A stretch of 51,471 bases of DNA. Source: a virus. The DNA is taken from IMG/VR virus record IMGVR_UViG_3300042463_000920, positions 1 through 51,471 of that record. One strand, 5' to 3'. This document shows, in pieces, positions 40,426 to 51,471 of the stretch. The notes under the pieces are model-generated. The model ran no database searches, was not told the origin of the DNA, and worked only from the letters and a program-made list of their open reading frames with translations. The position numbers were made by a program, and so were the translations under genes. How positions within the stretch are numbered: position 1 is the stretch's first letter; every line of letters starts with the position of its first letter.

Positions 40426-41295
40426 TTAATAATTTACATTGAATTTACTTTCGTTAAATCCTAATTCTTTTAGTTTTTCTATTACAGAGTCCCTAATATC
40501 GCCTCTACTTGGACCTCGTCTAGAGCTCCAACTATAGTAATTCATTTCCGATTTAAAAGATAAAGTAATATGTAACCCTTTATAAGTGGTTTGAATTTTT
40601 ATTGAGTGTATCTTATCACCACTAGGGACTGATTTAATTTCGGACTTAAGTTTTTGAATGAACTTTTTATCTAAAAATCTTTCATTGTTTTTTAATATAA
40701 TATCATCGGTAATTTCAAGCTGACCATGAGAAGGATACCCAAATTCAATACCCATATAAGTTTCTAAATATTCTTTAAATTCCTCAAAGAAATCATGAGC
40801 GTCTTTTTCAGTATAGTCAGAGACCATTAATTTTTCAAAATCAACAGTTAAACGAACATGAATTACGTAAGGATTTTCTTCAGTAAATGAAAATGTTAAC
40901 CAATCGGGTAATCTAAGAGATTTTATTATGGAATTTATTTGTTTTGCAAACTTTTCTGTGAATTTATGAGATGGAAGTAATGTAGGTAATTTATGTTGAC
41001 GATTTCCAACAAACCATTTACCAATTTCAACTAATTGTCTTGTTGACCAATATTCATCATCATAGATATTAGTATTAATATCGTAAGACTTTATAAATTC
41101 AAGATAGTATTTCTTTAAAAGATAAGACAAAGGAAATTTACCAATATCTTCACCATGATTTTCTCTAACCCAAGGTCTGAAATACTCGAAGAATACCTCA
41201 ATGAAGTCCTCATCATCATAATAATTTAAATTATCTGATTCAGAAATTACTTTAATATAGTGTTTAAAATGAGATTCGGTAATTATAAATTTCAT
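40426..41295 (-). CDS. Tagged protein, 289 aa
   Basis: The tag MKFIITESHFKHYIKVIS is of the IITE/S class. The N-terminal half is helical and acidic, and the C-terminal half (residues about 150-280) is beta-rich (YVIHVRLTVDFEKLMVSD, HSIKIQTTYKGLHITLSF) with a final helix. It is the largest member of the IITE/S class in the cluster. A TATTTAT box lies 5 nt before the ATG. The 3' end faces the endolysin. Confidence 0.76.
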   Translation of the reverse strand: MKFIITESHFKHYIKVISESDNLNYYDDEDFIEVFFEYFRPWVRENHGEDIGKFPLSYLLKKYYLEFIKSYDINTNIYDDEYWSTRQLVEIGKWFVGNRQHKLPTLLPSHKFTEKFAKQINSIIKSLRLPDWLTFSFTEENPYVIHVRLTVDFEKLMVSDYTEKDAHDFFEEFKEYLETYMGIEFGYPSHGQLEITDDIILKNNERFLDKKFIQKLKSEIKSVPSGDKIHSIKIQTTYKGLHITLSFKSEMNYYSWSSRRGPSRGDIRDSVIEKLKELGFNESKFNVNY

Positions 41296-41300
41296 ATAAT

Positions 41301-41320
41301 ATAAATACCATGATATTTAT
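41301..41320. promoter_or_regulatory. Divergent TATTTAT box pair
   Basis: ATAAATA at 41301-41307 (5 nt from ATG 41295 minus) and TATTTAT at 41314-41320 on the plus strand. The plus box is 12 nt before an ATG (41333) opening an 8-codon ORF that ends just before the real gene at 41363. Confidence 0.48.
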
Positions 41321-41362
41321 TATTGTGACTCCATGCTCACAAACAATTTTAAATTGTAACAC

Positions 41363-42355
41363 ATGTCAGAAAGATTAAATAATGTTGTAAGAGATTACAT
41401 TAATAAATTCGGATATTGGGAAACCCAACGCATGATGGGGATTTCTTATACTAAATTGGCAAAACTTTCAGGTATGTTAATATCTGAAGATTGGGCTTAC
41501 GAAATTATACAAGAAAACATTAATAAAAATAGACTACCAACGAAATACAAAGAATTTAGGATAGCGACTAATTTTGATGGTATTGTTTATTGGGAGACAA
41601 ACATAAAGACAGGGTATTTTCCATCATATTTAATTGAATCTATGACTGTTTATGCAACCCCATTTTGGGATGCAAATAACTATACCCCCGTTGATGTTGA
41701 TTTTTATGAGTTAGTTGATAAAGACAAAGATGTATATGTCCAAATTACAGGGGATGGAGATTTCTTCAAAACATATAGAGATAGGTCACTATTTAACAAC
41801 GTTGACGATTTATTCGAATGGTATAAAGAAAAATATTTACCAAACGTTTACGATATTATAATGAACATTCTTTTACCTGAAGTACAAAAAGCGGCGGATG
41901 AAGAATTAGATGATTTATCTGATGAAGGTAAATTAAGAGAAAACACAATCATTGAGAGTTCTGATGAAAAATTCATAAAAACTGTACAGGACAGTATAAA
42001 CAAAAATGATTTATTGACAACTATAAAGATTTTTGGAGCTAAAAAAGTTTTAAGTAAAATATTGGAGCTCAATATTGGAATTAAAGATAAAATTAATTTT
42101 ATTAGATATGTTGTAAAAGATGTTGGTGGAGTTAGTTTATTTGACATTGATGAAACTCCTATAGAATATATGAAAAAAGGTGATGAATACCATGAAATTG
42201 TATATTTGGGTACTAATTTCGTATATATAGACGTATGGAATTATAAAAAATATGACGGTGAATATGAAGTACATTATCATAATTTAAATGATGACATGAT
42301 TAATGAAATATTTTGGATTGTTAAGAGTATAGCAATACAAAATGATGTTTTTTAA
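41363..42355 (+). CDS. Unknown protein, 330 aa
   Basis: Begins MSERLNNVVRDYINKFGYWE then QRMMGISYTKLAKLSGML, a short helical segment with helix-turn-helix spacing. The middle (WETNIKTGYFPSYLIESMTV, VYVQITGDGDFFKTYRDRS) is beta-rich and the C-terminus mixed. It lacks an obvious N-terminal cleavage site, although GMLISED near residue 35 has I-S-E. The leader contains an 8-codon ORF from 41333. It is followed by a tagged gene after 12 nt. Confidence 0.7.
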   Translation: MSERLNNVVRDYINKFGYWETQRMMGISYTKLAKLSGMLISEDWAYEIIQENINKNRLPTKYKEFRIATNFDGIVYWETNIKTGYFPSYLIESMTVYATPFWDANNYTPVDVDFYELVDKDKDVYVQITGDGDFFKTYRDRSLFNNVDDLFEWYKEKYLPNVYDIIMNILLPEVQKAADEELDDLSDEGKLRENTIIESSDEKFIKTVQDSINKNDLLTTIKIFGAKKVLSKILELNIGIKDKINFIRYVVKDVGGVSLFDIDETPIEYMKKGDEYHEIVYLGTNFVYIDVWNYKKYDGEYEVHYHNLNDDMINEIFWIVKSIAIQNDVF

Positions 42356-42367
42356 TTAATATATTAG

Positions 42368-43006
42368 ATGAATTTAAGAGAAAGTATAAAGTTAATATTA
42401 GAAGAAGAGGTAAATAAAAAATACCCCAAGCCAACACCAAACGTTGAAAAATTAATCTATAAATGGTTAAATAATTATTTTTCAGGTGCTCAAATGTATC
42501 ACAATAAATCATGGGAATCTAGACATGATTTTGAGTTTTGTAATAAAGGTAAAGAAATACTAAATGTTATTTTATTTTTTAACCATAACGATGAAGTTTG
42601 GAGTGACGATAGAACTACAGAAGAAAGAGATTTTGAAAGTGGAACCTTACAAATTCCTAAAGATATTATTAATGAATTGGCGTCAGTTATTCCTGTAAGA
42701 AGAACTTTTTTAAGATATGTTATTGAAGAATGGTTTGAGGATACTTATTTGGGTGAGATACAAAGTAAGATGAAAAGAAATGATATATCAATAGATGAGT
42801 TTGATGAATATCCTGATAAATCTCAAATATGTGTCCCACCAATGACAAAACCTGATGATGTCAGTCTTGACGATATGATTGATTTTGTGGTTGCAAATAC
42901 TTTATTCCGTAGAGCTGAATTAGAAAAAAGAAGTCCTGAATTTATTGAAAAAACTTATTTAGAAAAACTTCGTTCACAAGAAATGGATAGAGTAAGAGGT
43001 AATTAA
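42368..43006 (+). CDS. Tagged protein, 212 aa
   Basis: The tag MNLRESIKLILEEEVNKK (I-L-E / L-E-E) links the ILKE and MNLQEQ classes. The body has a Trp/His-rich start (KWLNNYFSGAQMYHNKSW), a strand region (KEILNVILFFNHNDEVWS), and a long helical C-terminus with RRAELEKRSPEFIEKTYL. The function is unknown. It converges with the nine-gene minus cluster. Confidence 0.74.
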   Translation: MNLRESIKLILEEEVNKKYPKPTPNVEKLIYKWLNNYFSGAQMYHNKSWESRHDFEFCNKGKEILNVILFFNHNDEVWSDDRTTEERDFESGTLQIPKDIINELASVIPVRRTFLRYVIEEWFEDTYLGEIQSKMKRNDISIDEFDEYPDKSQICVPPMTKPDDVSLDDMIDFVVANTLFRRAELEKRSPEFIEKTYLEKLRSQEMDRVRGN

Positions 43007-43009
43007 AAA

Positions 43010-43420
43010 TTAACAGTCACCAGTATTCATAATCTCAATATTATGACCTCTAATAATATCACCATTTAATTTATATAGAAGATGACTAACATGTTCGTAT
43101 ACAGTGTTACGAATTGCTTTGTCGAACATGTAACGACCTTCATAACCTGCTAATGGTTTAGGGATATAAATAATTAAATCCATAGAATAACGAGTAGGAA
43201 TGATATTATAATTACAATATTTCATGGTGGGACCAATATCCTTAGTAAACAATATATTTGTTAGATAAATGATATCCTCTCTTGTTCCCTTAAGACCAAT
43301 CTCATCAACAACTTCCTTCGGCATCTTACCTGTCATAGTACATAAAATCTTCATACCAAATTTTTCTAATAAAGCTTTAAGAGTTTCTTGTTGTTGATTT
43401 TCTGAGATTAGATAGTTCAT
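43010..43420 (-). CDS. Tagged protein, GG subfamily, 136 aa
   Basis: ATG 43420 gives MNYLISENQQQETLKALLEK (I-S-E/N). A TTG two codons upstream is rejected, because ATG 43420 overlaps the upstream stop by one base. The stretch FGMKILCTMTGKMPKEVVDE aligns in pattern with residues 20-45 of the 44787 and 45905 proteins, suggesting a subfamily. The end is strand-rich with a terminal Cys. It is the last gene of the minus-strand run. Confidence 0.73.
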   Translation of the reverse strand: MNYLISENQQQETLKALLEKFGMKILCTMTGKMPKEVVDEIGLKGTREDIIYLTNILFTKDIGPTMKYCNYNIIPTRYSMDLIIYIPKPLAGYEGRYMFDKAIRNTVYEHVSHLLYKLNGDIIRGHNIEIMNTGDC

Positions 43421-43788
43421 TACCAATTAGTATTAGTTTTATTATGTATGGTATCATTATGAACTAATTTAACTGTATTTTTTCCTACGTAAGATTGTAT
43501 TTGGTATTGTAGTTCCCATATTAAATTATCAACACTCTGGTATTGGTGTATAGATTCAGTATAGAAATCTAAAAATAATATTATGAAACCCTTATCAATT
43601 TTAACATCAATAACTTTAATAGAGCCAGTTGTTTCCAATTCGTCACAAGCGTCAAAATTAATTATTTCTCTTGCTTCAGCACCTAACTCATGTTGCTCAT
43701 CACACTTTTCCTGAAGTAAAGACAATGACATATTCAGTATTTTCTGAAATGTTTGTATTTGTTGACTCTCTGTTATAATAAACTTCAT
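43420..43788 (-). CDS. Tagged protein paired with 45224, 122 aa
   Basis: The tag is MKFIITESQQIQTFQKIL. The body SLLQEKCDEQHELGAEAREI then IKVIDVKIDKGFIILFLDFY parallels the 45224 protein (LRDWCDSISEYGNDEADSI, IEVKSLTPNEKDGGIYIN), so the two are paralogues. The C-terminus is a Thr/Asn-rich tail. Its start overlaps the upstream gene by 4 nt. Confidence 0.74.
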   Translation of the reverse strand: MKFIITESQQIQTFQKILNMSLSLLQEKCDEQHELGAEAREIINFDACDELETTGSIKVIDVKIDKGFIILFLDFYTESIHQYQSVDNLIWELQYQIQSYVGKNTVKLVHNDTIHNKTNTNW

Positions 43789-44135
43789 AAATAAATCTCA
43801 ATAAATTGTTCCATGGTTAATCCAAGAGGTTCTATACCCAAAAGGTCCATGAAATAAGATTCATCAAGTGGGGTACAGTCATTAGTAATAATCCAATCTT
43901 TACCATTGTCCAAATTTTTTTGGTATAATATTTTAACTTTATCTGACATGTCAATAAGATACATCGGACCAAAATTATTTAATCTTCGGTTTATATAAAC
44001 ATATGAAGCACATTCATCAAAATAGTTCAATAAACTATATGCACTTGTAACCTCTTCTATTTTACCTGAAAAGTCTATATCAAACCTATTTTTAATTAGG
44101 TCTTTCATTCTTGATTCTGTGATGATATATTTCAT
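43785..44135 (-). CDS. Tagged protein, 116 aa
   Basis: The tag is MKYIITESRMKDLIKNRF. The middle has an aromatic strand pair (CASYVYINRRLNNFGPMYLI) and a W-I-I-T loop. The end FMDLLGIEPLGLTMEQFIEI resembles the end of the untagged 49214 protein (FNYFGVKTSGLSFEGFSP), hinting at shared ancestry. It is separated by 1 nt from its upstream neighbour. Confidence 0.73.
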   Translation of the reverse strand: MKYIITESRMKDLIKNRFDIDFSGKIEEVTSAYSLLNYFDECASYVYINRRLNNFGPMYLIDMSDKVKILYQKNLDNGKDWIITNDCTPLDESYFMDLLGIEPLGLTMEQFIEIYL

Positions 44136-44136
44136 A

Positions 44137-44448
44137 TTACATTATATAAGTACTTTTAACAGGAACATCAAACTTAGTTTCAAACCAATTTTTTAGTCTA
44201 TCCATACTTTCCTCATACTCTAAAGGAAAGAACGAGGACAGTTCTATAATCAAACTTGGTAATACACCAAATTCTTGTGTTATCCCATAATAAGAGAACA
44301 CAGGACGTTCACTATTCCCCCATGATTCTTTAGATGACCAAACATACCCATCCGTCCCATCTCTAACAACATACATATTAGGGAAAAGACCATTAATGTA
44401 GTCATTTAATAATTTATCTATATGTGATTCTGTGATAATGTATTTCAT
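44137..44448 (-). CDS. Tagged protein of the W..PV family, 103 aa
   Basis: ATG 44448 starts MKYIITESHIDKLLNDYING; the in-frame extension upstream runs through the previous gene out of phase and is rejected. The end RLKNWFETKFDVPVKSTYIM is the shared C-terminal motif. The middle (VVRDGTDGYVWSSKESWGNS) is a Trp-rich strand-turn. It is 1 nt downstream of its neighbour. Confidence 0.74.
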   Translation of the reverse strand: MKYIITESHIDKLLNDYINGLFPNMYVVRDGTDGYVWSSKESWGNSERPVFSYYGITQEFGVLPSLIIELSSFFPLEYEESMDRLKNWFETKFDVPVKSTYIM

Positions 44449-44449
44449 G

Positions 44450-44785
44450 TTAGTATACGTATTCTTCTTCACCTCGGGAAAATGTGGCGATGTTTGATTC
44501 TTCCACAGGTAAGTGATAATGTTTATGTAACCATTTAGATAACACGGACTGCATACTTGTAAAACGTTCCATGGAGAACATCCAAAACCCACTTCTCCAA
44601 ATATCATCCAATACCCAAACAAAATAAGTATTATCTTTATCAATAACCATAATCATGGGTTCACCATCATCATTAACCAATGTAAGTTTATCACCGTCTA
44701 ATTGATGATGTAACTTACCAAATTGTTTTGTGATGAAACTATCAATCGTAGCATTAAGTTTAGATTCTGTTATAATGTATTTCAT
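44450..44785 (-). CDS. Tagged protein of the W..PV family, 111 aa (duplicate A)
   Basis: MKYIITESKLNATIDSFITK then FGKLHHQLDGDKLTLVNDDG and the end LSKWLHKHYHLPVEESNIAT plus FSRGEEEYVY. It is a near-duplicate of the gene at 45582-45902: the first 47 residues differ at only a few positions, the middle diverges, and the end is again conserved. This copy keeps the full C-terminal EEEYVY. Confidence 0.76.
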   Translation of the reverse strand: MKYIITESKLNATIDSFITKQFGKLHHQLDGDKLTLVNDDGEPMIMVIDKDNTYFVWVLDDIWRSGFWMFSMERFTSMQSVLSKWLHKHYHLPVEESNIATFSRGEEEYVY

Positions 44786-44786
44786 A

Positions 44787-45221
44787 TTATTGGTCTAAAT
44801 GTTGTTTATGAGGTGCTCTATAAAATTGACTAACATTTGTCATGTTATAATTGTATGTCTCGTTAAACCATTTCATTATGATAGGGTTGTAATCGTTACC
44901 TGTCATACCAATACCCTCAGAAAAGAATCTTAAGAAGTCAACATAACTAACCGAGAAGTGGGGATAACGTTTTAATAGTTTATTTGTAAAGCGAATTATA
45001 ATACGATTATTTTCAGTAATCATATAAACTTCTTTTCTAGAACCAACAACCTTTCTCAAATTAGAAAAAGAGTTTAAGTATTCATAAGGGTCACCATTGT
45101 AAGCATCAACTACTTTACCAATGTCACCACCAAAAAACTTAATGGTATAATCCAAACCTTGTTTAGATACCATGGATTTAACGACATCATTTAATTTATT
45201 TTCTGTTATAAGATATTTCAT
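44787..45221 (-). CDS. Tagged protein, GG subfamily, 144 aa
   Basis: The tag is MKYLITENKLNDVVKSMV. The segment DYTIKFFGGDIGKVVDAYNG then YEYLNSFSNLRKVV parallels the 45905 protein (VASSFVGGHENLFSIIG). The C-terminal IIMKWFNETYNYNMTNVSQF carries a W-F-x-x-x-Y variant of the common ending. It is 2 nt from the next upstream gene. Confidence 0.74.
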   Translation of the reverse strand: MKYLITENKLNDVVKSMVSKQGLDYTIKFFGGDIGKVVDAYNGDPYEYLNSFSNLRKVVGSRKEVYMITENNRIIIRFTNKLLKRYPHFSVSYVDFLRFFSEGIGMTGNDYNPIIMKWFNETYNYNMTNVSQFYRAPHKQHLDQ

Positions 45222-45223
45222 AG

Positions 45224-45562
45224 TTACTCTTCAATTATATTAACGTCACCCAAATTAAACATATCACTAATGGTCCCATTAATACATATGTCAAGTTCGT
45301 GGTAGATAATGTATATGTTGTCAGACTCTTCGGTAGTGTAGACATTAATGTTAATATAAATACCACCATCCTTTTCATTAGGGGTTAAAGATTTAACCTC
45401 AATCCTTGATATAGTACTTAAAGCATAACAAATACTATCTGCTTCATCATTCCCATACTCGGAAATACTATCACACCAATCACGTAGTTCATTAAGACAG
45501 TTGTCAATGACATTCTGAACCATTAATAATTTATTTTGATGTTCTGTGATAATGTATTTCAT
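45224..45562 (-). CDS. Tagged protein paired with 43420, 112 aa
   Basis: ATG 45562 gives MKYIITEHQNKLLMVQNVID; the longer upstream frame is the shadow of the duplicate gene. It shares the CD ... GN(D)EA ... strand layout with the 43420 protein. The end (YIIYHELDICINGTISDMFN) is strand-rich. A 19-nt gap separates it from the duplicate B gene, and that gap is former coding sequence. Confidence 0.74.
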   Translation of the reverse strand: MKYIITEHQNKLLMVQNVIDNCLNELRDWCDSISEYGNDEADSICYALSTISRIEVKSLTPNEKDGGIYININVYTTEESDNIYIIYHELDICINGTISDMFNLGDVNIIEE

Positions 45563-45581
45563 ATTAGTATACGTATTCCTC

Positions 45582-45902
45582 TTAACCTCGGGAGAACGTT
45601 GATATATTCGATTCTTCCACAGGTAAGTTATAATGGTTATATAACCATTTAGATAATACGGACTGTATATCCTCAAAACTTTTCATAGAAAACATATGGG
45701 ATACAATATCCCAAACCTTATCCAATACCCAAACAAAATAACCATTATTTTTTAATGGATAAACCATAATCATGGGGTCACCATCATCATTAACCAATGT
45801 AAGTTTATCACCGTCTAACTGATGATGTAACTTACCAAATTGTGTTGTGATGAAATTATCAATCGTGGAGATAAGTTTAGATTCTGTTATTATGTATTTC
45901 AT
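45582..45902 (-). CDS. Tagged protein of the W..PV family, 106 aa (duplicate B, truncated end)
   Basis: MKYIITESKLISTIDNFITT then FGKLHHQLDGDKLTLVNDDG and the end LSKWLYNHYNLPVEESNIST plus FSRG. Relative to duplicate A, a GAA codon has become TAA, so translation stops five codons early. The remaining codons for EEYVY and the old stop are still readable in the gap to the next gene. This is a recent tandem duplication followed by trimming of the tail. Confidence 0.76.
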   Translation of the reverse strand: MKYIITESKLISTIDNFITTQFGKLHHQLDGDKLTLVNDDGDPMIMVYPLKNNGYFVWVLDKVWDIVSHMFSMKSFEDIQSVLSKWLYNHYNLPVEESNISTFSRG

Positions 45903-45904
45903 TT

Positions 45905-46339
45905 TTAATTAAGTTCAAATTTATCAAGTGCTTTATATCGTCCCGAATCTACAAATACAGTTACCTTATCTGAATACATTTCAGGAAAACGTTTAACTAA
46001 TTCTTTGATTACGTCTCTTCGATATAAAGCATACAAATACGAAAGATTATCATCAATACGTGAAAGCATATAAGAATCGTAAGCATTTAAACCAACAAAA
46101 CCTATTTCAAGAAGAGGAAGACCTTTATCCATTAATAACAAACCACCACCTCTTTTTTCTATATGTAAATTACGAAAATAACTTAGAATAAATGGTACAA
46201 CAGTCTCTTTTGATTCACCGATAATGGAAAAAAGATTTTCATGACCACCAACAAAAGAAGATGCGACATCCCATCCATTATTTTTAATTAATTCTAATAC
46301 CATTTTTTGTTGCTGGCTTTCGGTGATGATATACTTCAT
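45905..46339 (-). CDS. Tagged protein, GG subfamily, 144 aa
   Basis: ATG 46339 gives MKYIITESQQQKMVLELIKN; the upstream in-frame stretch crosses the divergent promoter. NGWDVASSFVGGHENLFSII then TVVPFILSYFRNLHIEKRGG matches the 44787 and 43010 proteins in pattern. The end is helical with a Lys/Phe tail. As the promoter-proximal gene it heads the nine-gene minus-strand run. Confidence 0.75.
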   Translation of the reverse strand: MKYIITESQQQKMVLELIKNNGWDVASSFVGGHENLFSIIGESKETVVPFILSYFRNLHIEKRGGGLLLMDKGLPLLEIGFVGLNAYDSYMLSRIDDNLSYLYALYRRDVIKELVKRFPEMYSDKVTVFVDSGRYKALDKFELN

Positions 46340-46345
46340 ATGAAT

Positions 46346-46366
46346 ATAAATATATTGTATATTTAT
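46346..46366. promoter_or_regulatory. Divergent TATTTAT box pair driving both halves of the cluster
   Basis: ATAAATA at 46346-46352 (6 nt from ATG 46339 minus) and TATTTAT at 46360-46366 (4 nt from ATG 46371 plus). The entire 31-nt gap is promoter-like. Confidence 0.58.
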
Positions 46367-46370
46367 TAAT

Positions 46371-46859
46371 ATGAACTTACAAGAACATATAAGGAAAGTT
46401 TTAATAGAGACTCTTGAATCCAAATGGAACGAGGGTAACTATGACTATCAATATGGGTTCTGTCATTATTTTGCATATAACATCATAGGTAAGATTAAAA
46501 AACGTTTCCCAAATAAGAAAGTGAATTACTACCTTTTACTGGCAAACGAAACGGACAAAGACACAGGAGAAGTGGAACAAGAACATCTTTTACATGTTTA
46601 TATTAAAATTGATAATATGTTATTAGATTCCAATGGATTCACAACAATGGATAAGGTAGAAGAAAGAATGGATGATTGGTACGAAAGACAATTACGTATT
46701 ATTCCTGAAGATTATGAAATTAATATGTGGACGGAAGAATCAGATACAATACCTGAGTATTTTTTCAATAATAGATTTTGTAATCCAGGTAGAGTCAAAA
46801 AAGACATTGAAACATTTCTATCAAATCCAATAGTTCAAAGAATATTAAAAAATAAATAA
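46371..46859 (+). CDS. Tagged protein with papain-like C/H/D layout, 162 aa
   Basis: The tag is MNLQEHIRKVLIETLESKW (L-I-E). The body reads YGFCHYFAYNIIGKIKKRFP, then EQEHLLHVYIKIDNMLLDSN and G. A Cys at the start of a helix, a His at the start of a strand and an Asp on the next strand is the arrangement of papain-like / transglutaminase-type folds. Family members include proteases and effector deamidases. With the tag, an injected enzyme is plausible. The fold assignment is by eye. Confidence 0.74.
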   Translation: MNLQEHIRKVLIETLESKWNEGNYDYQYGFCHYFAYNIIGKIKKRFPNKKVNYYLLLANETDKDTGEVEQEHLLHVYIKIDNMLLDSNGFTTMDKVEERMDDWYERQLRIIPEDYEINMWTEESDTIPEYFFNNRFCNPGRVKKDIETFLSNPIVQRILKNK

Positions 46860-46876
46860 ATAAATAATTATAAAAT

Positions 46877-47197
46877 ATGAAACTTGTTATAACTGAATCT
46901 CAATTACAAAGAGCCTACATTAATTACTTAAATTTGTTAATGGGAGATATTAAATTAAATTTTGAAAAATCGGACAAAGGTTATAAGGTTTTTTATAACG
47001 GACCAATTAGAACTTTTACTTATAGTGTTAGAAGTGAAGATGTGTATTTTTTAGAGAGTACTATTAGAGATTTTCATAGTATGTTTTCTGATTTAGAATG
47101 GGAAGAGGTATTAAATATTATTGGTAAATGGATTCAATATAAATTTGGATACCCTGTAAGGGAGGTACACTCGGTAGAAAGAATGAGTGAAAATTAA
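46877..47197 (+). CDS. Tagged protein of the W..PV family, 106 aa
   Basis: The tag is MKLVITESQLQRAYINYL (I-T-E/S). The body is DKGYKVFYNGPIRTFTYSVR, and the end VLNIIGKWIQYKFGYPVREV then HSVERMSEN carries the common C-terminal motif. It is the plus-strand counterpart of the minus-strand WxxPV genes, showing the family crosses the divergent promoter. Confidence 0.75.
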   Translation: MKLVITESQLQRAYINYLNLLMGDIKLNFEKSDKGYKVFYNGPIRTFTYSVRSEDVYFLESTIRDFHSMFSDLEWEEVLNIIGKWIQYKFGYPVREVHSVERMSEN

Positions 47198-47198
47198 T

Positions 47199-47570
47199 AT
47201 GAACCTACAAGAACAAATATTAAGAATACAATCAATGATGGGAGGTATTAACGAATCCCATATACCTTTAGTTATTAGAAGAAGAGTATCGGATGAAGAT
47301 ATTGAAGAGGCGTTTGAACACGCATTAGATAGAATGGGAAATTCAATGGAAAACCCAAATTCGGTCATATATAAAGAAAAAGGAACCACTCTATGGTTAT
47401 TTGCGAAATTTGTTATTGACGAGATGGTAACATATTTAGAACAAGATTATTTCACCGATGATAACCGTATATATTTTGAGGACGACGATTTCTATTATGA
47501 TAAAATTAGAAAACCACTTCTTAGACATTATGGTGGTAGAATAAAAGAAAGATACAATGAAATAATATGA
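47199..47570 (+). CDS. MNLQEQ-tagged protein, 123 aa
   Basis: ATG 47199 gives MNLQEQILRIQSMMGGINES (I-N-E/S); a GTG four codons upstream is rejected because the tag defines the start. The remainder is acidic and helical (VSDEDIEEAFEHALDRMGN) with a Phe/Asp-rich strand and a basic end (RHYGGRIKERYNEII). It starts 1 nt after the previous stop. Confidence 0.75.
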   Translation: MNLQEQILRIQSMMGGINESHIPLVIRRRVSDEDIEEAFEHALDRMGNSMENPNSVIYKEKGTTLWLFAKFVIDEMVTYLEQDYFTDDNRIYFEDDDFYYDKIRKPLLRHYGGRIKERYNEII

Positions 47571-47923
47571 ACCTGCAAGAACAAATATCAAGAATGAAGT
47601 CAATGATGGGGACTATTACTGAAAGTAATAAAATGTTAAATACCATAAAGTTATATATGACTATGAACTACCCTGACTTTACAAAAGATAATACGCTAAT
47701 AAAATACGGGGAACATTCAGGGATTAAAGAATATTTTAGTAAAGACACCAATGAATACTTTTGTACTTATTGGTCCGACGATAAAGATTTAGGTTTAAAT
47801 AGTAAAATATTTAATTCACTTTATTCCATGTTTGGTGAAGATGGAATGACATATATTTTAGATTGGTTTAATAAAGAATTTGATGAAGACGCGGAAAACG
47901 CGTCATTTGTATTAGTAAGATGA
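47567..47923 (+). CDS. MNLQEQ-tagged protein, 118 aa
   Basis: The tag is MNLQEQISRMKSMMGTITES (I-T-E/S). The body GIKEYFSKDTNEYFCTYWSD then MTYILDWFNKEFDEDAENAS has the W-F-x-x-x-F ending seen in the W..PV family, so this protein combines the MNLQEQ tag with that domain. The start overlaps the previous stop as ATGA. Confidence 0.75.
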   Translation: MNLQEQISRMKSMMGTITESNKMLNTIKLYMTMNYPDFTKDNTLIKYGEHSGIKEYFSKDTNEYFCTYWSDDKDLGLNSKIFNSLYSMFGEDGMTYILDWFNKEFDEDAENASFVLVR

Positions 47924-48810
47924 AACTACAAGAACAAATATCAAGAATCCACTCAATGATGGGGTTAATCATTGAAGAAAAACAAGATAAATCAGTTGTT
48001 CTTTTAGATGGTACATCATCGGCGGGTAAATCACATACCTTAAAACATTTAAGAGCGGTTCCATACTACAAAGCAAATGACCCGAATCGATGGGTCGTTA
48101 TTGGTACCGATGATTTTAGTGGAACAGGAGATGGTGACGGTAGAGAGGGTGAAGAAAGAAGACTAAAATTAGACCATCCAAATATAAGACAATGGGCAAA
48201 AGAAAATCAGGATGTGGGTATAGTATCAGGATTATACCGTGAAGACGGTAAAGATGTTCCTAAAAATCCATATGAAAATGAATACATAAAAGGAACTGAC
48301 GCAAGATTGTGGTATGTTGCACAAGAAATTAAAACAGGTCCTTGGAAAAAGATTGCAATTGATGATATTGGTAAAGGAATATTACAATACTTACCTGGTG
48401 TTAAAATAAAATACATTCTATTACATACACCATTATATGTTCTTTTAAAGAATGTTTATGAGAGAAATGAGAGAGCAAAAAATGACCCCAATTTTAAAAA
48501 CGATAATAGGGATGTTAAGATGGTGTTAGACCAATACTCCGAAAAATATGAAGCAACAAAATCTAAACCTGACATTAATGAAGGAGACCCTACAACAGTA
48601 TTAACCAAAGGTGGGGTAACTGACTTACTTCAAAAAAATGGGATGAGTGATAAACATATAAATGAGTTTTTAAATAATATTAATTTAACTGATGATGGTG
48701 ACTATTATATTAAAGTTAGAGATACATATATGACACCCGAAACACAATTAGTAAATGTAGATAGTGAAAGGACTGTCTATTTAAAAGATATTGATAAAGC
48801 ATTAAAATGA
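47920..48810 (+). CDS. MNLQEQ-tagged P-loop kinase, 296 aa
   Basis: The tag is MKLQEQISRIHSMMGLIIEE (I-I-E). A Walker A motif follows directly, VVLLDGTSSAGKSHTLKHLR, then VIGTDDFSG as a candidate substrate-binding Asp pair and AIDDIGKG. GTSSAGKS with a following DD resembles chloramphenicol-phosphotransferase and zeta-toxin-like kinases. A capsid-delivered kinase acting on a host small molecule or protein is a reasonable hypothesis. It overlaps both neighbours by 4 nt. Confidence 0.82.
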   Translation: MKLQEQISRIHSMMGLIIEEKQDKSVVLLDGTSSAGKSHTLKHLRAVPYYKANDPNRWVVIGTDDFSGTGDGDGREGEERRLKLDHPNIRQWAKENQDVGIVSGLYREDGKDVPKNPYENEYIKGTDARLWYVAQEIKTGPWKKIAIDDIGKGILQYLPGVKIKYILLHTPLYVLLKNVYERNERAKNDPNFKNDNRDVKMVLDQYSEKYEATKSKPDINEGDPTTVLTKGGVTDLLQKNGMSDKHINEFLNNINLTDDGDYYIKVRDTYMTPETQLVNVDSERTVYLKDIDKALK

Positions 48811-49205
48811 ACCTACAAGAACAAGTTAATAGGATACATGAAGTGATGGGGATTAAAGATATCTTCGGAAATCTTTTTGGTAAAAAAGAATTAACCAAGG
48901 ACGAGAAATTAATTAATGTTATTGCGAATTTTGTTAAAAAGAACTATGATATAGAAGAACGAAAGTCCCTTCATATGAAAGGTGATTACGCTTATTGGTT
49001 AATGCCAGAGAACAGAATTGTTTTTTACTATGATAAACAATATAAAAGATTACAATATCCATGGTGGTTTGCTGAAGACATTCATAGATTTATCGGTGAT
49101 GATAGATTAATACATCTTAACAGTGAAATGATAGGTAAGGTCTTCGAAAAGTTATATAAACATAAAGTTAACGACGCTCAAGGATATAGTAGTATAACAG
49201 TATAG
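48807..49205 (+). CDS. MNLQEQ-tagged protein, 132 aa
   Basis: The tag MNLQEQVNRIHEVMGIKDIF lacks a perfect I-x-E at the usual place (KKELTKDEKL follows), so cleavage, if any, is less certain. The body has ADYAYW-type aromatic strands (GDYAYWLMPENRIVFYYD) and the end MIGKVFEKLYKHKVNDAQGY resembles the W..PV ending without the Trp. It is the last gene of the plus-strand run. Confidence 0.73.
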   Translation: MNLQEQVNRIHEVMGIKDIFGNLFGKKELTKDEKLINVIANFVKKNYDIEERKSLHMKGDYAYWLMPENRIVFYYDKQYKRLQYPWWFAEDIHRFIGDDRLIHLNSEMIGKVFEKLYKHKVNDAQGYSSITV

Positions 49206-49213
49206 GATAAAGT

Positions 49214-49549
49214 TTAACCGACAAGTATTACATCAATAGTAAGACCATTATAAACATATGGGGAGAAACCTTCAAAACTTAACCCTGAGGTCTTAACACC
49301 AAAGTAATTAAAGATATCTCGTCTTATGGAATACTCCATTCTTTTTTCTTTATGTTTTTTTATGTCAGAGGATTGGGGGTTGATTATATAGATATCACTG
49401 ATAGAATCAAAGTATAATGATATAATAGTTTCGATATGAGAGGAATCACTTCCTTCCCATACATCACGTTTATCTATTATAATCTTTTCAGGATTGTACA
49501 GATGGTCGATGTACTTAACAATCCCATTTAATAACTCAGGTGATTCCAT
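49214..49549 (-). CDS. Untagged small protein, 111 aa
   Basis: ATG 49549 gives MESPELLNGIVKYIDHLYNP; the longer frame from 49597 crosses a TATTTAT box 6 nt upstream of this ATG. The end FNYFGVKTSGLSFEGFSPYV is similar to the tagged 43785 protein. It may be a relative that lost the tag. It is the first gene with the more G-rich codon use of the right end. Confidence 0.65.
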   Translation of the reverse strand: MESPELLNGIVKYIDHLYNPEKIIIDKRDVWEGSDSSHIETIISLYFDSISDIYIINPQSSDIKKHKEKRMEYSIRRDIFNYFGVKTSGLSFEGFSPYVYNGLTIDVILVG

Positions 49550-49555
49550 ATAAAG

Positions 49556-49562
49556 ATAAATA
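49556..49562 (-). promoter_or_regulatory. TATTTAT box 6 nt before ATG 49549 (minus)
   Basis: ATAAATA on the plus strand, fixing the start of the 49214 gene. Confidence 0.5.
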
Positions 49563-49654
49563 TAGTGAAATAATATAACCCAATCATTCACTCCCATTTT
49601 TTTACTTCGTAACGTTCCCCCATCTTCGATGAGGTCACTAAAAAACTCCGTTCA

Positions 49655-50323
49655 TCATTGTGTTATATCATTTCCCCTAAGAACCTCATTTACATTTATG
49701 GTGGGATGACCCGACCATTTTATGGCCATCTCTACTTTATGTTCAAGAACCTCACCCACCGTAGAACTACTAGGTAATACCCTATAGTCAGTTGATGATA
49801 CCTTATAATTTAAAACCTGCTTCACCATTATAGGGATAGAAGATACTACTTCTTCAGTTTTGTTTACCCTATAATTAAGGACTTCTTCCACCCTTGATGC
49901 TGACCAAACGTTGGTGAACTGGGTTGTGTTTACCCTACAATTTAAGACCTCTTCCACCCTAATGTTTTCTAACTCAGCGATGTCTTTAGTTGTGTTTACC
50001 CTACAATTTAAGACCTCTTCCACCTTTTCTTGGAAATCGTTGCAGTGAAAAATAGTTGTGTTTACCCTACAATTTAAGACCTCTTCCACCCAAGAAGAAA
50101 TAACGGGGGTAAATTCCTTATCAGTAAGACTAAATAACTCAAAGAAAGTTCTAAAGAAACCATACTTCCACCATAGAGTTCCGTCAGAACAAAAGATAAA
50201 ATACCAACACTTATTTTCTCTATCAACAAACCATATCTCTTTTTTGTAGGGAACAATCTCTACACAAGACAAATCCTTATATAGTTTCTTAAATATAATC
50301 TCTTTTAATCTATCACTAACCAT
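49655..50323 (-). CDS. Small-protein family member whose 3' half is a repeat-spacer array, 222 aa
   Basis: Residues 1-90 (MVSDRLKEIIFKKLYKDLSC, NKCWYFIFCSDGTLWWKYGF, FELFSLTDKEFTPVISSW) align along their length with the 45582 and 44450 proteins, but the IITE/S tag is missing. Where relatives end with W-x-x-x-x-[YF]-x-x-PV, this one has SWVEEVLNCRVNTT and then repeats the 12-residue VEEVLNCRVNTT unit at an exact 22-residue period, separated by unrelated 10-residue segments. Three units are identical; four more degrade toward the C-terminus while keeping V1, V4 and L5 (V9 in all but the last). Whether it is expressed as protein, RNA or both is open. Confidence 0.68.
   Translation of the reverse strand: MVSDRLKEIIFKKLYKDLSCVEIVPYKKEIWFVDRENKCWYFIFCSDGTLWWKYGFFRTFFELFSLTDKEFTPVISSWVEEVLNCRVNTTIFHCNDFQEKVEEVLNCRVNTTKDIAELENIRVEEVLNCRVNTTQFTNVWSASRVEEVLNYRVNKTEEVVSSIPIMVKQVLNYKVSSTDYRVLPSSSTVGEVLEHKVEMAIKWSGHPTINVNEVLRGNDITQ
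49659..50090 (-). CRISPR. CRISPR-like array: 36-nt repeats, 30-nt spacers, 66-nt period
   Basis: Repeats at 50055-50090, 49989-50024 and 49923-49958 are identical. 49857-49892 matches at 31/36, 49791-49826 at 26/36, 49725-49760 at about 20/36, and 49659-49694 is barely recognisable. On the plus strand the repeat starts GTTGTGTTTACC and ends CTCTTCCACC; on the minus strand it starts GGTGGAAGAGG and ends GGGTAAACACAAC. The six 30-nt spacers show no similarity to each other, and one (49893-49922) is 50% GC in an AT-rich genome. Decay toward low coordinates is the polarity of a real array with its leader near 50.1 kb. No cas gene lies in the window. The array is also an open reading frame. Confidence 0.62.
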
Positions 50324-50349
50324 AATAACAAAGATAATAATTTAATTTT

Positions 50350-50431
50350 AATAATACTATACAATTACTCACTCATACCTACCGTTCATTTCATTCACTA
50401 CGGTTCTCCTTCGTAATCATATAGTATTATT
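50350..50431. repeat. 12-bp inverted repeat, long stem-loop
   Basis: AATAATACTATA at 50350-50361 is the exact complement of TATAGTATTATT at 50420-50431. A shorter ACCG / CGGT pair lies inside. Confidence 0.7.
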
Positions 50432-50447
50432 GTTCATTATTTTGTCG

Positions 50448-50466
50448 TGTTCAGTGTCACTGAACA
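50448..50466. repeat. 9-1-9 perfect palindrome
   Basis: TGTTCAGTG-T-CACTGAACA, an operator-like dyad. Half-site words (GTGAAC, GTTCAC) recur at about 50478-50484 and 50602-50610. Confidence 0.7.
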
Positions 50467-50951
50467 TTAGATTATAGTGAACAGTTCCCCCATTATATGT
50501 GGGTGTTTACAGTAAACTGTTTAGTGTAAACTTTCCCCATTTTATAATACGGTGGTCACTGACCCCCATATATGAAAGACATATAGAGTAAATGTTATGG
50601 TGTTCACTAATCATGTATATTGTTTATACATTAGAAACCTTTCAGGTATAATAAATATAATAATTTATACATGATATGAATGAACATATAGTGGGGAATT
50701 GTGGTAAGTATGTTTCATATCTGTATGGTCAGGTGAAACCTGATTAGAATGATATAAATGATTACTTTATTAGTTCCCCTTATTATATTTGTTATGGTAT
50801 GTCTAAGTGAAGGGGAGTTATGGTGGTGTATAATATCGGACAAAATGTCCCCTCGTTGAACCTCCTGTTAGTCGGGTCTTTGAAGGTTAATTAATGACTC
50901 TTCTAACACACTAACGTGTTTCCCCGCTTTATGTACCATAAATAGAATAAT

Positions 50952-51239
50952 TTGCTGGGAATTATATATAGTAAAAAAACTGGTCCTAATGGTACCACTA
51001 GAGGGGAAAAATCCTCATTCTTACTATCAGGAAGACCAATAGTGGTGGTAAAAGGTGGGGGAAAATATACTAAAGGTGGGAGTAAAAACCCTGTGAAGGG
51101 ATTATCCCCATCACGAAACACGACTGACATTTTGACATTTCCAAATTTTTTAACACTTTTTTTTATAAAAAAGTTATCAACAATCCCCTCTGACACTATG
51201 TCAGTAAGGGATACTTATAAAAAGATATTAACAATTTAA
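50952..51239 (+). CDS. Uncertain ORF, 95 aa, coupled to the gene at the right edge
   Basis: The frame opens at a TTG (50952) with MLGIIYSKKTGPNGTTRGEK and contains a Gly/Lys-rich middle (VVVKGGGKYTKGGSKNPVKG). Its stop overlaps the next ATG by one base (TAATG), as real neighbours do here. An opposite-strand ATG frame (50903-51196) competes, but it is Pro/Phe-rich and less gene-like. Confidence is low, and the true start may lie elsewhere. Confidence 0.4.
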   Translation: MLGIIYSKKTGPNGTTRGEKSSFLLSGRPIVVVKGGGKYTKGGSKNPVKGLSPSRNTTDILTFPNFLTLFFIKKLSTIPSDTMSVRDTYKKILTI

Positions 51240-51471
51240 TGTGTAAAAATATGTACCAACAAAGTCGGGTCAAGTACCTAAAAAACTTATCAACAGAAAT
51301 TAACAAGGAAGGGAACCATATAACTGTAGAGTACAGTATGAATAAGAAGAAGGGGACCTGTAAGTATATAGAGAAACCTTCAATGAGTAAGATACAACCA
51401 GGAGTTCACCTACTATTAATGGAGGTGGGAATGTCAGATATAATAGATGAGATAAATAAAATATCCCCACT
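51239..51471 (+). CDS. Partial gene at the right edge, 77+ aa
   Basis: ATG 51239 begins MCKNMYQQSRVKYLKNLSTE and stays open to the last base, with GNHITVEYSMNKKKGTCKYI then VHLLLMEVGMSDIIDEINKI. Codons favour AAG, GAG, CTA and GGG, unlike the AAA/GAA/TTA preference of genes before 49 kb. The C-terminus is outside the window. No family is recognised. Confidence 0.62.
   Translation, partial: MCKNMYQQSRVKYLKNLSTEINKEGNHITVEYSMNKKKGTCKYIEKPSMSKIQPGVHLLLMEVGMSDIIDEINKISP

Follow-up and report, generated by a model that had tools for sequence, protein, structure and literature searches.

A phage protein gene whose 3′ half is organised as a CRISPR-type repeat-spacer array and may grow by CRISPR adaptation

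Near one end of the window (the whole 51,471-nt stretch analysed, positions 1 to 51,471 of IMG/VR virus record IMGVR_UViG_3300042463_000920), the minus strand carries a 222-codon gene whose 3′ half is laid out as 36-nt repeats separated by 30-nt spacers. The array gene is a real protein-coding gene with a domain under purifying selection, and the reading favoured here, with a probability of about 0.5, is that an adaptation integrase extends the CRISPR-type array that forms the 3′ half of this authentic phage protein gene, in-frame units being kept. The broader proposal, that Bacteroidota phages use CRISPR adaptation, probably by host Cas1-Cas2, as a protein-writing device that converts 30-bp pieces of foreign DNA into 22-residue modules screened for an open frame, is advanced a shade more tentatively. 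The features of the locus are as follows (all on the minus strand).

49655–50323: whole gene, 222 amino acids plus stop codon, N-terminal domain followed by seven repeat units (ORF list; same family in other viral contigs)
50323 and 49655–49657: ATG and stop codon, the limits of the ORF (ORF list)
50090–50323: N-terminal domain, residues 1–78 (AlphaFold2 model; dN/dS)
49659–50090: array of seven units (repeat matching)
50055–50090: repeat 1, 36 nt, encoding the end of the last helix of the domain, VEEVLNCRVNT (repeat matching, AlphaFold2 model, equivalent tail in repeat-less paralogues)
50025–50054: spacer 1, TATTTTTCACTGCAACGATTTCCAAGAAAA (no viral-contig match to 23-nt core)
49989–50024: repeat 2, same as repeat 1 (repeat matching)
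49959–49988: spacer 2, TAAAGACATCGCTGAGTTAGAAAACATTAG (no viral-contig match to 24-nt core)
49923–49958: repeat 3, same as repeat 1 (repeat matching)
49893–49922: spacer 3, CCAGTTCACCAACGTTTGGTCAGCATCAAG (no viral-contig match to 24-nt core)
49857–49892: repeat 4, 31/36 identical to repeat 1 (repeat matching)
49827–49856: spacer 4
49791–49826: repeat 5, 26/36 identical to repeat 1 (repeat matching)
49761–49790: spacer 5
49725–49760: repeat 6, 20/36 identical to repeat 1 (repeat matching)
49695–49724: spacer 6
49659–49694: repeat 7, terminal, 17/36 identical to repeat 1, followed by the stop codon (ORF list, repeat matching)

The repeat GGTGGAAGAGGTCTTAAATTGTAGGGTAAACACAAC occurs on the minus strand in three mismatch-free copies, one start per 66 nt, and no further copy was present in the window at up to three mismatches (35-base query; 0 expected from 100 shuffles). 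A recount bore out the sequence-only reading, which had described seven units at an exact 66-nt period, each with a 36-nt repeat and a 30-nt spacer, within an open 222-aa minus-strand frame; the last unit has no spacer and ends at the stop, and Tandem Repeats Finder likewise reported the 66-nt period. Matches to repeat 1, previously given as 36, 36, 36, 31, 26, about 20 and then barely recognisable, came to 36, 36, 36, 31, 26, 20 and 17 of 36. The spacers are mutually unrelated, as had also been stated, the six in the window agreeing with one another at 5–13 of 30 positions (mean 8.3, vs 8.0 for shuffled spacers). Some 900 nt upstream of the gene (window positions 50324–51238) contain no convincing gene, together with many G-runs and palindromes such as GTTCAGTGACACTGAAC; a search of positions 49500–51300 against Rfam returned nothing at E up to 1.

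The same gene was detected in five other contigs with a degenerate repeat pattern, two of which showed multiple matches spaced 66 nt apart, and two scans of viral contigs (33 loci with a profile and 55 with the N-terminal region only, the contig sets overlapping) place the family in dozens of viral contigs. LR745206.1 (634,780 bp) is a relative of the window phage by one short match. A repeat-like motif follows the domain in every relative examined past the domain, and array size ranges from one or two degenerate units (L041, L189, L206) to 16 units (L039). Three or four array genes lie near each other in L005, L010, L012, L014 and L019, and in such multi-gene contigs each array gene is homogenised to its own repeat variant. 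The third array gene in a row in L012 (6842–7474) has repeats decayed almost beyond recognition and an open frame. A very long array in L211 (3001 onward) reads as a protein of 493 residues. Arrays are not confined to the C-terminus: in L207 (3001 onward) one of four units sits mid-protein and is followed by a Cys/Lys-rich domain (GPWVNICRKDKDGKHPPCGRSE...).

Evidence that the product is a protein comes from both halves of the gene. AlphaFold2 models residues 1–85, i.e., the domain and the start of the first repeat, with confidence (pLDDT about 90; elements H4-17, E22-26, E29-34, E39-45, E49-53, H54-62, H68-84), the last helix of the domain (residues 68–84) continuing into the first repeat in the model; residues 86–192 are not modelled confidently. 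The dN/dS of the N-terminal domain is 0.11–0.29 in four subgroups. Not one in-frame stop occurs in the 1467 codons of 163 distinct 30-nt spacers, where about 6.7% per codon would be expected and the other five frames have 4–11%. Decayed units, called at fixed 22-codon steps, retain V1 at 0.88, L5 at 0.97 and V9 at 0.87, vs only 0.27 and 0.31 for residues 10 and 11. The absence of stops in the spacers, the dN/dS of the domain and the retention of V1, L5 and V9 make it very probable that the tail is translated and of importance. As in a tandem-repeat protein, the frame is open and the repeat is constrained at the protein level, a constraint that the sequence-only reading had allowed for and that now extends to an open frame in every spacer. 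A fixed 66-nt unit with a stop-free repeat may read open by chance, and translated CRISPR arrays are known to contaminate protein databases (PMC7673337); a genuine CRISPR array that is spuriously translated has virtually no chance of being the explanation here, however, and was rejected on the stop count and on the conserved, confidently modelled domain.

It is also conceivable, if very unlikely, that the units are a by-product, the host adaptation machinery mistaking the end of the gene for an array and the phage tolerating in-frame insertions from which it gains nothing. Geometry, polarity and frame selection would all be explained without a new function, as would arrays of anything from one to 16 units. 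If the tail were useless, however, a stop soon after repeat 1 would be harmless, and none of the 163 distinct 30-nt spacers has one; nor would such a by-product account for old units that keep V1, L5 and V9, or for the three to four adjacent array genes of some contigs.

Small proteins beginning MKYIITES or MNLQEQ, encoded in the same region of the phage, resemble the array gene in the end of its domain (W, last helix and tail) but terminate after the tail and have no repeats. Similar single-domain folds were found in other uncultured phage proteins. The domain is probably an old one that naturally ends in the first repeat, since the repeat-less paralogues have an equivalent helix and tail and similar single-domain folds occur elsewhere. 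The small paralogous proteins form a cluster at window positions 40426–49205 with common N-terminal peptides (MKYIITES.., MNLQEQISRIxSMMG), and starts resembling these peptides (MKKVIRLTESDL) also occur elsewhere in the window; as a guess, the shared peptides might be a sorting or capsid-targeting tag. For the 222-aa protein itself, Pfam and PHROGs gave no credible family, a PDB fold search gave no match under E 0.8, and tblastn gave weak Bacillus phage matches (E 0.08–0.5). The 22-residue FNIP-type repeats of Crov588 (PDB 6NYR) have the 22-residue period and an E-x-V-L stretch in common with the array tail, and the whole profile matched this protein at E 1.2e-15; homology was rejected because the match is one of repeat against repeat, its four best single stretches are weak (E 0.003–0.26) and the array tail has no confident fold.

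The repeat is nevertheless a unit of DNA and not only of protein. Exactly 30 nt separate the repeats in 185 of 191 distinct spacers, and across 209 distinct units from the window phage and its relatives conservation begins and ends abruptly: position 1 carries 1.70 bits and the preceding base 0.20, position 36 carries 1.65 bits and the following base 0.08. Position 1 is the third codon base of a variable residue and position 36 a second codon base, and it is because these edges are out of codon register that the unit is regarded as one of DNA. Among 25 divergent genes, synonymous codon identity is 1.54 times expectation in the repeat, vs 1.02–1.36 in stretches of the domain. At the repeat edge, threonine 11, which lies within the repeat, is encoded by ACA in all 18 cases, while the codon of threonine 12, the third base of which lies outside, is ACT, ACA, ACG or ACC in 9, 6, 3 and 2 cases. 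The combination of 36-nt repeats with unrelated spacers of about 30 nt is that of type VI-B CRISPR arrays.

These edges bear on the explanation that the locus is a repeat protein only, in which recombination or gene conversion homogenises a helix motif and shuffles units, the linkers drift and no CRISPR machinery is involved. Such an account, which we consider unlikely, draws on the persistence of the motif V-E-x-(V/I/L)-L-N in distant clades as the DNA changes, on V1, L5 and V9 being kept in old units, and on the first repeat being the natural end of a domain known without repeats; gene conversion, however, is unlikely to end at 36 nt out of codon register. Unit shuffling of the kind that it invokes is seen. 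In L039 (5992–7311) one spacer, VSINKFIPRD, is present twice among the 16 units, and in L004 (840–1856) two tandem paralogous array genes have their last spacer in common (THMYNNGEI/THMYTNGEI), which suggests gene duplication after gain of that unit.

Turnover of whole units is apparent when spacer content is compared between related phages, a comparison that the sequence-only reading had put forward. Close relatives, compared in four groups, share spacers that are 93–100% identical (mostly 96–100%) and conserved in order, while other units of the same arrays have no counterpart; neighbouring units are unrelated, which a repeat protein with drifting linkers does not explain. The first spacers of L018 and L024 differ despite 99.6% identity of the N-terminal DNA. 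Pairs whose N-terminal identity is 93% or more together have 113 unshared units on the 5′ (N-terminal) side, 78 internally and 9 on the 3′ side, vs 47.5, 106.7 and 45.8 expected from random placement (within-clade pairs are not independent), so that 113 of 200 unshared units lie on the 5′ side, a polarised gain of whole units as in CRISPR arrays. As some of the unshared units are internal, either units also enter away from the 5′ end or recombination is common. In 35 of 37 arrays divergence from the first repeat tends to increase with unit number (mean mismatches, 2.9 in unit 2 and 8.2 in unit 6), in agreement with the one-sided decay, as in arrays with a leader, noted from the window alone. 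The units have only 36 nt in common, which is not what duplication of whole units followed by substitutions would leave; spacer acquisition or cassette exchange had been preferred to tandem duplication at the outset, and the ordered sharing of whole units, with unshared ones mainly at the 5′ side, upholds that preference.

The spacers are of foreign composition. Their GC content is 0.396, vs 0.326 in phage 30-mers open in the same frame (p 2e-20), and because this exceeds the value expected in a phage of 31% GC they do not appear to be drifted phage linkers; linkers that had drifted, as the repeat-protein explanation holds, should be AT-rich and variable in length, whereas the spacers have 40% GC and exactly 30 nt. 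Spacer peptides contain more A, D, E, G and R and less I, K and L than open phage 30-mers, and mean spacer GC varies by phage, from about 0.30 to 0.53. Searching for protospacers, as the sequence-only reading had suggested, produced no hits: none for 167 spacers in 2.8 Mb and then 208 in 3.1 Mb of phage DNA, where the remaining exact matches fell inside array genes or, at the edge of a locus, inside an array, none for subsets of spacers in INPHARED or PLSDB, and none in IMG/VR for the 23–24-nt cores of the first three spacers of the window.

In sequence, the repeat is related to those of type VI-B (Cas13b) arrays from Flavobacteriia. Published repeats of Flavobacterium branchiophilum (GTTGTAACTGCCCTTATTTTGAAGGGTAAACACAAC) and F. 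columnare (GTTGGGAAAGCCCTTATTTTGAAGGGTATCTACAAC) are accompanied by spacers of 29–30 nt (PMC5395568); the table concerned gives no subtype names, and assignment of the F. columnare array to type VI-B fits its repeat length and leader-distal end (PMC8092290). The window repeat equals that of F. branchiophilum at 27 of 36 positions, and when the latter was scanned against 2.4 Mb of phage DNA no sites but the three repeats of the window reached 27. With the F. columnare repeat as query, 57 of 61 sites at ≥24/36 in the same DNA lay inside these arrays, which type II-C and V-A repeats never hit. The window repeat also exceeded all 2000 of its synonymous recodings in similarity to each VI-B repeat, and did not do so for the II-C or V-A repeats. 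The VI-B comparison comprises three repeats, the two published ones and that of L008 (Chryseobacterium), the sole array found in genome contigs by a Cas13b-repeat pattern, where a Cas13b gene (PADLOC E 9.6e-36) stands beside a related 37-nt repeat. No genuine VI-B repeat of Flavobacterium type was found in viral contigs with the pattern used. The VI-B-like repeat sequence is seen in the window clade and the HKVSTT clade and is weaker in distant clades (L192, L195–L204; mostly 14–20/36), which keep the 36/30 geometry and the edges; that the repeat is specifically VI-B-like in the window clade is a further difficulty for the repeat-protein explanation.

The transcript might, as a rather doubtful alternative, act as an RNA decoy or hijacker, a pre-crRNA mimic whose repeats are bound and processed by host Cas13b and which loads it with useless guides, in the manner of the RNA anti-CRISPRs (Racr), or with guides against competitors. 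The 36/30 geometry and the VI-B-like repeat in sense orientation are those that a mimic would need, and in the type VI-B2 system of Porphyromonas gingivalis overexpression of one extra crRNA that titrates Cas13b gave ∼1000-fold more plaques (PMC13187072). The survey that described Racr masked ORFs, dropped array-clustered repeats and found no type VI units, and would have missed such a case (PMC10651486). The lack of spacer matches in the phage DNA examined is as if self-targeting guides had been purged; counting against this reading, no spacer matched a known phage or plasmid in the collections searched. Cas13b moreover recognises a hairpin into which the entire repeat folds (PMC13187072), and whereas VI-B repeats fold at −10.6 to −12.2 kcal/mol, the phage repeats reach 0 to about −7 (L197, −10.0) and are no more structured than their synonymous recodings, except in L197 (p 0.048). 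The stable hairpin recognised by Cas13b is therefore not a feature of these repeats, and a crRNA role is made less likely by the lack of a maintained VI-B-like hairpin. An RNA decoy would also fail to account for the strictly open frame or for decayed units that still keep V1, L5 and V9; these constraints on frame and residues favour the protein over a crRNA.

In 33 phage records no cas1 or cas2 was found, nor any cas13b (the query being one divergent, partial Cas13b and the records fragments) or reverse transcriptase (RVT_1). A diversity-generating retroelement was rejected, no RVT_1 having been found in these records.

Under the favoured reading, the codons of the last helix of the domain would double as the 36-nt repeat, and the domain's own coding sequence would occupy the position of a leader. 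A CRISPR adaptation integrase would place 30 bp of foreign DNA beside the first repeat and copy the repeat, each insertion adding one 22-residue module to the protein. Copying 36 bp and inserting 30 bp at one end is the action of Cas1-Cas2. As none of cas1, cas2, cas13b and reverse transcriptase was detected in the phage records, we infer that the enzyme is most likely host Cas1-Cas2 acting in trans. Provision in trans has a precedent in F. columnare, where the type II-C Cas1-Cas2 serves the type VI-B array, the shared motif being the leader-distal end, ACAAC on this strand (PMC8092290). Selection would retain only in-frame, stop-free insertions, and older units would decay towards the 3′ end, recombine or be lost. 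We likewise infer the source of the spacers and the benefit to the phage, the best guess for the latter being a translated modular tail of repeated V-E-x-V-L helices and variable linkers that serves in counter-defence; the tail might possibly also act as a sink for the host adaptation machinery.

Repeat proteins are explained by duplication and recombination. Viral CRISPR arrays and mini-arrays have been described as sources of guides. Here one stretch of DNA behaves in both ways, gaining units like a CRISPR array and strictly keeping its frame, in dozens of viral contigs, and no earlier description of such a protein-coding array was found in the literature searched, which lay mostly outside subscription journals. 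Should the adaptation machinery indeed insert the units, new protein sequence would arise from CRISPR spacer capture. The arrays would also be a record of DNA present in the cell. Such loci would escape published surveys for viral CRISPR repeats in which predicted genes are masked.

Several known systems share some of these features. Like the phage array, viral CRISPR mini-arrays are carried by viruses without cas genes; they have one or two spacers, mostly against related viruses, and repeats identical to those of the host (PMC11656645), whereas the phage arrays comprise as many as 16 units with repeats only resembling known ones, and no targets turned up in related phages. Racr are also phage-encoded mimics of a host CRISPR repeat, and consist of solitary, intergenic repeats with no type VI representative (PMC10651486). 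In contrast to such solitary, non-coding repeat transcripts, the phage arrays are coding and multi-unit, with a selected open frame and weak hairpins. The type VI-B arrays of Flavobacteriia differ in that the phage array lies inside a translated gene and its spacers are always frame-compatible, while neither cas genes, a matching stable hairpin nor a protospacer was found. Since the hairpin and the cas linkage were looked for and not found, and no protospacers were detected, the array gene is not classed as a type VI-B array, but it grows like a CRISPR array and has in common with those of type VI-B the 36-nt repeat and its ACAAC end, the 30-nt unrelated spacers, the sense orientation, a variable 5′ end and decayed 3′ repeats.
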